A program made the position numbers and the translations under genes. The notes under the pieces were generated by a model. The model had not been told where the DNA came from. It saw only the letters and a program-made list of their open reading frames with translations, and ran no database searches. A stretch of 43,835 nucleotides of DNA from Bacteroidales bacterium (GTDB lineage: Bacteria; Bacteroidota; Bacteroidia; Bacteroidales; UBA932), in assembly GCA_024401715.1 (NCBI GenBank), contig JAKSKO010000010.1, forward strand, positions 1 to 43,835. The letters run 5' to 3'. Positions 1-43,835 of the stretch are shown one piece after another. Position 1 is the stretch's first letter, and each line of letters opens with the position of its first letter.

Positions 1-3
1 CGA

Positions 4-112
4 AATCCCCAGCCTCATTTTTGGGGCGAGGCTGGAGACACCACCTATGAACACAGCTCGTGAAACCAACATGCGAATCCCCAGCCATTCCACAAAAGTG
101 AGGCTGGGGATT
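4..112 (+). repeat. 109-nt imperfect palindrome, copy A
   Basis: Outer arms at 4-17 and 99-112 are perfect inverted repeats (AATCCCCAGCCTCA and its complement). Pairing continues in one register to 23/93 with one G-T pair. An inner stem at 30-35/81-86 (GGCTGG/CCAGCC) follows in the same register. The central loop is about 39-77. A second copy of identical length lies at 43677-43785. The element contains no convincing gene. It resembles a REP-like or other dispersed palindromic element, but I cannot name a family. Confidence 0.85.
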
Positions 113-150
113 GGATGATGGTGGTGGCAAGCCCTGGGGCACCGCGATCC

Positions 151-212
151 TGATAATTTCGTCCGAAAATGCTGTTCTGTCCACAAGGAAGGCGGTTTTT
201 GTGGATACGAGG
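151..212 (-). repeat. E2 repeat, copy A (inverted relative to copy B)
   Basis: The reverse complement of this stretch matches 43567-43640. A 12-mer (TTGTGGACAGAA, here at 175-186 on the minus strand) is identical, and a 15-mer (198-212) differs at one base. The two blocks are 11 nt apart in both copies. A third, weaker match covers 151-170. Within the unit TCCACAA (180-186) and TTGTGGA (199-205) can form a small hairpin. It always sits just inside the 109-nt palindrome, so the two appear to form one composite repeat. Function unknown. Confidence 0.65.
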
Positions 213-10969: not shown

Positions 10970-10977
10970 CAAATTTA
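10970..10977 (-). promoter_or_regulatory. -7 box TAAATTTG, DUF486 gene
   Basis: Consensus on the minus strand, 23 bases before the ATG at 10946. Paired divergently with 10990-10997 across a 12-bp gap. Confidence 0.55.
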
Positions 10978-10989
10978 ATAAAATTATGC

Positions 10990-10997
10990 TAACTTTG
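10990..10997 (+). promoter_or_regulatory. -7 box TAACTTTG, tRNA-Arg
   Basis: Consensus box ending 12 bases before the tRNA 5' end. Confidence 0.6.
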
Positions 10998-11009
10998 CAC
11001 AAGTTAAAC

Positions 11010-11081
11010 GGCCCCTTAGTTTAATGGATAAAATTTGGGATTCCGGTTCCCACGATGGGCGTTCGATTCGCCCAGGGGTCA
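11010..11081 (+). tRNA. tRNA-Arg (anticodon CCG)
   Basis: The 72-nt sequence folds as a full cloverleaf. The acceptor stem is 11010-11016/11074-11080 (one G-T), with discriminator A11081. The D-stem is GTTT/AAAT. The anticodon stem is 11036-11040/11048-11052 with loop TTCCGGT, placing CCG at the anticodon, which reads the arginine codon CGG. The T-stem is GGGCG/CGCCC with loop TTCGATT. The 3' CCA is not encoded. It has its own promoter and a terminator immediately downstream. Confidence 0.95.
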
Positions 11082-13587: not shown

Positions 13588-13595
13588 CAAATTTA
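13588..13595 (-). promoter_or_regulatory. -7 box TAAATTTG, GT28-cyuA operon
   Basis: Consensus on the minus strand, 16 bases before the ATG at 13571. Faces away from 13608-13615 across a 12-bp gap. Confidence 0.6.
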
Positions 13596-13607
13596 ATAAT
13601 ATTATCT

Positions 13608-13615
13608 TAACTTTG
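13608..13615 (+). promoter_or_regulatory. -7 box TAACTTTG, yggS-like gene
   Basis: Consensus box seven bases before the ATG at 13623, predicting a very short or absent leader. Confidence 0.6.
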
Positions 13616-13622
13616 CAATGTT

Positions 13623-43566: not shown

Positions 43567-43640
43567 CCTCGTTTCCACAAACAAGGCCGTATTTGTGGAC
43601 AGAAACCGATTCACACATCTGCATCGGCCGAAATAATGGC
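43567..43640 (+). repeat. E2 repeat, copy B
   Basis: Contains the 12-mer TTGTGGACAGAA (43593-43604) and the 15-mer at 43567-43581 shared with the reverse complement of 175-212, with the same 11-base spacing, plus a weaker match at 43621-43640. TCCACAAA/TTTGTGGA (43574-43599) forms a small hairpin. Confidence 0.65.
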
Positions 43641-43676: not shown

Positions 43677-43785
43677 AATCCCCAGCCTCACTTTTGAAGC
43701 GAGTCTGGAGACACTCCCCATAGACACAGCGCGTAAATACGGTATTCGAATCCCCAGACATTCCACGAAAATGAGGCTGGGGATT
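43677..43785 (+). repeat. 109-nt imperfect palindrome, copy B
   Basis: Same length and fold as 4-112: outer arms 43677-43690/43772-43785 are perfect, the inner stem is 43703-43708/43754-43759 (GTCTGG/CCAGAC), and the loop is about 43712-43750. One inner pair has changed from G-C in copy A to T-A here, a compensatory change. The interval 43448-43676 otherwise holds only E2 and no gene that I can support. Confidence 0.85.
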
Positions 43786-43835
43786 TCGGGGGCTGGTTGG
43801 AAGTGAGGTCGAAAATCGTCTGCAGCACCTGGGAC

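Follow-up and report, generated by a model that had tools for sequence, protein, structure and literature searches.

REPINs, as set out in the available text of Bertels and Rainey (2011; PMC3116915), are doublets of REP sequences which form hairpins. REPtrons of the GTAG type are known from E. coli, Stenotrophomonas and Marinomonas, and GTAG is required by the E. coli enzyme (PMC8266576, accessible part). Closer in taxonomy is subclass 2.6 of the RAYT/TnpA-REP proteins, equivalent to group 5 of Bertels and found mostly in Bacteroidetes: according to the available text of Quentin et al. (2018; PMC6006769), its genes are flanked by atypical secondary structures which lack GT[AG]G and have copies elsewhere in the genome, while its proteins carry a WQ motif and have a median length of 179 aa. 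CGTC repeats in Bacteroidetes are mentioned in PMC3733652, and beyond this mention and PMC6006769 the accessible open-licence literature yielded no such elements in Bacteroidales.

The stretch of DNA analysed here (the window, 43,835 nt) is the whole of contig C2 in an assembly of 1.98 Mb, 79 contigs and 90.27% completeness, and carries a copy of a 109-nt palindrome, element P, at each end. We propose that P is quite probably a family of non-autonomous, REPIN-like mobile palindromes with RAYT-1, one of four RAYT-like proteins of the genome, as the likely mover.

Element P and its copies

Copy A of P occupies 4..112 on the + strand, with the contig starting 3 nt earlier, and copy B occupies 43677..43785 on the + strand, with the contig end 50 nt further on. 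Both consist of 109 nt and pair in the same register (i+j=110), with arms of 35 nt and 39 nt between them, just as in the original prediction of two same-length copies sharing one register over about 35 positions per side. Complementarity of the arms is 83% in A and 77% in B, and the copies are 82% identical to each other. Each half of P is a hairpin on its own, the two halves are inverted around a spacer, and, in single-stranded form, the element can fold over its entire 109 nt into a single long hairpin. In copy A the left hairpin H1 (9..35, + strand) gives −8.2 kcal/mol when a 37-nt stretch is folded alone, and the right hairpin H2 (76..112, + strand), inverted with respect to H1, gives −12 kcal/mol. 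Folded as single-stranded DNA, both strands of A and B outperform 200 of 200 dinucleotide shuffles (z −4.7 to −6.0), and the palindrome is therefore not a product of chance. In the outer arm, columns 3–13 are paired in all copies with letters at both positions, and the spacer is variable, so that the ends of P are more conserved than its spacer, as is characteristic of REPINs. Integron attC sites have the core-site motifs GTTRRRY and RYYYAAC; neither window copy contains them, and we reject an attC site as the identity of P.

A blastn search of the own genome with window positions 1–125 returned 25 matches, which correspond to 17 places of P, one fragment at an eighteenth place (C9:20621-20649) and seven opposite arms. 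Fifteen of the 17 copies are full length, one (C53) is cut by a contig end and one (C21) is truncated, and they are 77–98% identical. By a crude ORF call ten copies run across no called ORF; the remaining seven (C71, C75, C3a, C9, C22a, C2b and C21) overlap ORFs of 86–170 aa (86–156 aa in six of the seven), which look spurious. Three copies (C46a, C46b and C60) have only P and short borders in common, 129–140 nt in all, in otherwise unrelated surroundings, which indicates that a discrete unit has spread. Elsewhere P is absent from everything sampled: blastn found it in 1 of 41 genomes, and a covariance model built on the 17 copies, a kind of search that the original prediction had proposed, detected it in a single one of the genus's 151 genomes (the own and 150 congeners; run with Infernal's stricter filters, by which weak matches can be lost), the positive genome being in both cases the own one. 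Within the genomes sampled P is species-specific.

RAYT-like genes and neighbouring palindromes

The original prediction also called for a RAYT or IS200/IS605-like gene, and four HUH/Y1 RAYT-like proteins are encoded in the genome, one of them 31 nt from a copy of P. Three genes were found by a Pfam Y1_Tnp search and a profile of RAYT relatives found the same three and a fourth. RAYT-1 (C46:13977-15059, 360 aa) is followed by a P copy (C46:15091-15199) which begins after 31 nt past the stop codon, and a second copy lies ~2 kb upstream of the gene. RAYT-2 (C55:9919-11007) has a palindrome of another family, L2, upstream, and a repeat module, L1, which follows its stop by ~35 nt, at the point where the contig ends. 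RAYT-4 (C23:22311-23153) sits between two direct palindromes of a third family, S, 86–88 nt long and nearly identical (3 differences, counted by eye). RAYT-3 (L044:4034-4957, on contig C28) is adjoined by no P, L2/L1 or S family; its neighbourhood holds terminator-like hairpins only, and it is either an orphan or has a palindrome family that we did not recognise.

For RAYT-1, RAYT-2 and RAYT-3 (307–362 aa) the best NCBIfam model is that of the REP-associated tyrosine transposase (NF047646), with scores of 38.7, 25.8 and 46.7 bits, all below its cut-off of 80. Against Pfam Y1_Tnp (cut-off 23 bits) RAYT-1 and RAYT-3 score above (23.5 and 32.3) and RAYT-2 below (19.5), while RAYT-4 is absent among the Pfam Y1_Tnp matches and has no NCBIfam match. 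We aligned RAYT-1, -2 and -3 with proteins from 14 of the 29 loci found in other genomes (alignment A2, one genus throughout; loci with in-frame stops and some others are left out). The two HUH histidines and the tyrosine and asparagine of the Y motif are invariant in all 17 proteins, and by eye HUH, tyrosine and asparagine are present in RAYT-4 too. None of the 17 has a tryptophan with E or Q directly after it in the part between HUH and the tyrosine, and the asparagine is followed by a tail of 171–192 aa. By eye this tail looks helix-turn-helix-like (L053, L055 and A2), with a weak sigma-like match (E 0.077) as the sole profile hit in its favour. Since phmmer with RAYT-1 as a single sequence found nothing among solved structures up to E 1, a profile was needed, and the RAYT profile matched transposases over the HUH region (E 0.003). 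Among solved structures, 2xm3 is that of ISDra2 TnpA. A scan of named genomes, from which the own genome and near ones may be missing, gave RAYT-1 a single, weak relative, which belongs to Streptomyces orinoci and has 35% identity across residues 83–132.

In the own genome alone, the adjacency of RAYT-1 and P could be chance at the per-cent level by our estimate. Across the genus, relatives of RAYT-1 (E 1e-10) are found in 118 of 151 genomes, the own included, with up to 9 matches per genome. From this longer list the best-scoring 30 loci were analysed, one per genome, and the set is consequently biased to closer relatives. A locus was counted as positive when its palindrome score was at least 14 or when a repeat was common to both flanks. 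The control was recA, found in 27 of the same 30 genomes at 30 loci, four of which were removed in advance (two were partial matches, one was weak and one was a second copy in its genome), leaving 26 loci from 26 genomes. Among the best-scoring RAYT loci 27 of 30 are positive, as against 3 of 26 recA loci (Fisher p 1.6e-9). The difference persists with the own locus excluded (26/29 against 3/26, p 2.7e-9) and with the score threshold raised to 18 (23/30 against 3/26, p 8e-7). Repeats common to both flanks were found at 17 of the 30 RAYT loci (16 direct, one inverted) versus none of the 26 recA loci. The three RAYT loci scoring negative are L053, L063 and L071; L053 is the closest relative among the matches listed (45% identity), and its weak post-stop palindrome does not rise above shuffles.

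Several further features of these loci were observed. The positive recA loci (L085, L092 and L106) have strong palindromes of ~73–87 nt just after recA, which may be elements of the same kind. Eight RAYT relatives (L056, L058, L062, L067, L068, L073, L076 and L080) contain 1–3 in-frame stops, so part of the genes are decaying. In some relatives tandem arrays take the place of single palindromes on the flanks of the gene: a 74-nt unit repeated ~8 times on each side in L074 (833-1438 and 2444-3092), a 52-nt unit repeated 15.6 times in L075 (630-1439), and a 52-nt unit repeated 5.9 and 2.8 times in L060 (1108-1413 and 2405-2552). At the level of the order, the profile search matched 40 of 198 genomes. 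Among the matches listed, full-length ones occur only within the genus (all four genes of the own genome and a single one in G167) and none outside it extends beyond position 170 of 286; the A2 profile comes entirely from one genus, so the shorter matches outside it may partly reflect divergence.

What is the role of a palindrome placed so close to the gene? In 14 RAYT loci the downstream palindrome reaches a score of at least 14, and in 12 of the 14 it begins 2–31 nt after the stop codon. It could serve chiefly to regulate the RAYT gene, as a 3' hairpin controlling it or read by it, with dispersed copies as by-products. In two relatives the RAYT-adjacent palindrome is indeed found hardly or not at all outside the RAYT locus: G051 has it at two places, the second 71% identical, and G150 at two places within a single locus, which argues against wide dispersal in relatives. 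However, P itself is found at 17 places in its genome, the 16 loci of 30 with a direct repeat on both sides of the gene have more than a 3' regulatory hairpin needs, and three of the 14 downstream palindromes (L056, L059 and L080) span only 46–52 nt and could be terminators. We regard this explanation as unlikely.

P could also be a MITE, derived by deletion from a DDE-type insertion sequence whose ends are long inverted repeats, and mobilised by the transposase of that insertion sequence. Its long inverted repeats and discrete ends would fit, but each half of P is itself a hairpin, by eye there is no target-site duplication in the flanks of the isolated copies C22b, C60, C46b and C2b, and the gene found beside a P copy is of the Y1 and not the DDE kind. 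A MITE origin thus appears quite improbable.

The explanation by a RAYT-moved, REPIN-like element is the one we favour, and with it the part of the original prediction which proposed a REP-type element moved by a RAYT-like transposase stands, backed by the 31-nt spacing and by the genus-wide contrast with recA. The pairing of RAYT-1 with P is likely, on the basis of position and of the pattern across the genus. Against this explanation count the lack of a palindrome family at RAYT-3, the NCBIfam scores below cut-off, the lack of a match for RAYT-4, the narrow spread of the RAYT-adjacent palindromes in G051 and G150, the per-cent chance of the RAYT-1/P adjacency in the own genome alone and the mosaics in which many P copies lie. 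We infer that P has moved, that RAYT-1 acts on it and that it may be acting still. By analogy with TnpA-REP, RAYT-1 would recognise the P hairpin in single-stranded DNA and would cut and rejoin P through its tyrosine, and P could in this way be copied or moved to new intergenic places. This path is taken over from the GTAG-type REPtrons in the accessible part of PMC8266576.

Taking the observations jointly, one can tentatively envisage a distinct RAYT clade which has multiplied in one genus, Bacteroidales-like as judged by us from promoter-like sequences and gene content. Its proteins lack the W-E/Q motif seen in enzymes that read GTAG and carry an extra C-terminal domain of ~170 aa; each may have a palindrome or tandem array of its own, in many cases beginning only a few bases past the stop codon. 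The choice of palindrome would then depend on this extra domain and not on a GTAG guide, with gene and palindrome changing together and new pairs arising quickly. This reading is possible, though we would sooner doubt it than rely on it. With relatives of RAYT-1 in 118 of the 151 genomes, there may be hundreds of gene–palindrome pairs in one clade, of which 30 loci are covered here, and co-evolution of enzyme and target could consequently be tested by sequence. The biochemistry in the available text of PMC8266576 covers enzymes of the GTAG type, and the present system bears on how RAYTs choose and spread palindromes.

Base pairing, repeat mosaics and contig ends

The original prediction had found in a G–C pair of copy A (G31-C85) replaced by T–A in copy B (T43704-A43758) a compensatory change, and in this change a sign of selection or constraint on structure. 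Both pairs exist as claimed, at columns 28 and 82 of alignment A1. Over 16 copies, however, this pair is G–C in 12, T–C in 2, T–T in 1 and T–A in 1; T stands at column 28 in four copies and is re-paired in only one of these, while the T–A change also breaks one pair in each of two small hairpins. Among the 35 pairs of the register 19 are invariant, 4 show variation on a single side, 10 deviate through unpaired cells alone, and in 2 (28–82, in window copy B, and 19–91) both sides are changed, each time in one copy. The search for more covarying pairs gave a covariation score of 0.042, compared with 0.048 on average for shuffles, of which 411 out of 500 scored at least as high. We reject a compensatory change in P: the further copies are many and show no sign of selection through covariation, and this part of the original interpretation falls while its mobile-element part is retained.

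These results also weigh on the idea that P is a structured RNA, or a cruciform bound by protein, whose base pairing is maintained by selection. A strong hairpin on both strands is what such an element would display, and copies of P often lie near gene ends (19, 25, 26 or 32 nt away, for example). Yet covariation does not exceed that of shuffles, P is missing from the 150 sampled congeners, and Rfam offers nothing positive for an RNA role: at gathering scores its sole match in the window is a tRNA at 11010-11081, with none at the palindromes of either window end. An RNA or cruciform is accordingly very unlikely. The window also contains a 30-nt AT-rich direct repeat (10970-10999 and 13588-13617, 90% identical), probably promoter-like.

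Many copies of P are embedded in mosaics with the L1 module, the L2 palindrome (a 162-column self-complementary match in the C39 copy) and S hairpins, and P occurs in both orientations relative to these neighbours: L2 lies to the left of P at C71, C30, C8 and C3b, and to its right, inverted, at C2b, C21 and C11. The window copies are no exception, since pieces of the palindrome families of RAYT-2 and RAYT-4 adjoin them. Copy A is followed by a repeat module found beside many P copies (115..207, − strand, 87% identical to the module beside copy C3a) and by a hairpin (174..205, − strand) of the S family which flanks RAYT-4 on contig C23; near copy B there is another S-family hairpin (43574..43604, no strand assigned), and directly beside copy B the end of an L2 palindrome (43791..43826, − strand), the family upstream of RAYT-2 on contig C55. 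As the P copies richest in number lie in such mosaics, larger duplications or recombination may have contributed to the spread of some of them.

A contig end is at most 1.3 kb away for 12 of the 17 copies, where ~10.4% of the genome would be expected to lie so close, and less than 200 nt away for 7 of the 17 (~1.6% expected). The presence of P at both ends of the window is best explained by breakage of the assembly at these repeats, which account for where it breaks. An assembly artefact or the plain segmental duplication of a larger repeat, to which this proximity and the longer flanks common to many copies might point, can be dismissed as barely conceivable, because copies 77–98% identical are not one sequence misplaced and because C46a, C46b and C60 are alike only in the element and its borders.

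Comparison with described systems

P shares several features with REPINs in the available text of PMC3116915: a pair of inverted hairpins which enclose a spacer and can fold together as one long hairpin, ~100 nt in length and dispersed; a cluster beside each RAYT, with several RAYTs and families per genome; and one family inserted into or next to another. In contrast to REPINs as described there, the GTAG-type foot is not found in P (of the 15 full-length copies none has GT[AG]G at the three feet inspected), there are 17 copies of P against 101 GI REPINs aligned from one strain, and compensatory changes, said there to be common, are not above chance in P.

In the GTAG-type REPtrons of PMC8266576 (accessible part), too, an HUH single-tyrosine enzyme stands beside its own palindromes, but their REPs are shorter than P and bear GTAG. 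With TnpA of IS200/IS605 the RAYT-like proteins share the catalytic core, as the profile matches to solved transposases over the HUH region suggest; the IS200 model, however, yields only 15.1 and 14.6 bits, far below its cut-off of 55, and unlike in IS200/IS605 the palindromes stand apart from the gene and are more numerous than it.

Subclass 2.6, in the available description (PMC6006769), resembles the present system in its flanking structures without GT[AG]G, their copies elsewhere in the genome, and the HUH and tyrosine motifs. It differs in its WQ motif, none of our 17 proteins having W-E or W-Q between HUH and tyrosine, and in size, the proteins here having 171–192 aa after the asparagine and RAYT-1, -2 and -3 reaching 307–362 aa. 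Given the missing motif, the long tail and a full-length profile match confined to the genus, we do not file these proteins in subclass 2.6. Judged from sequence, P and RAYT-1 would belong to a known kind of system, in which the branch of the enzyme and the palindromes look unusual.
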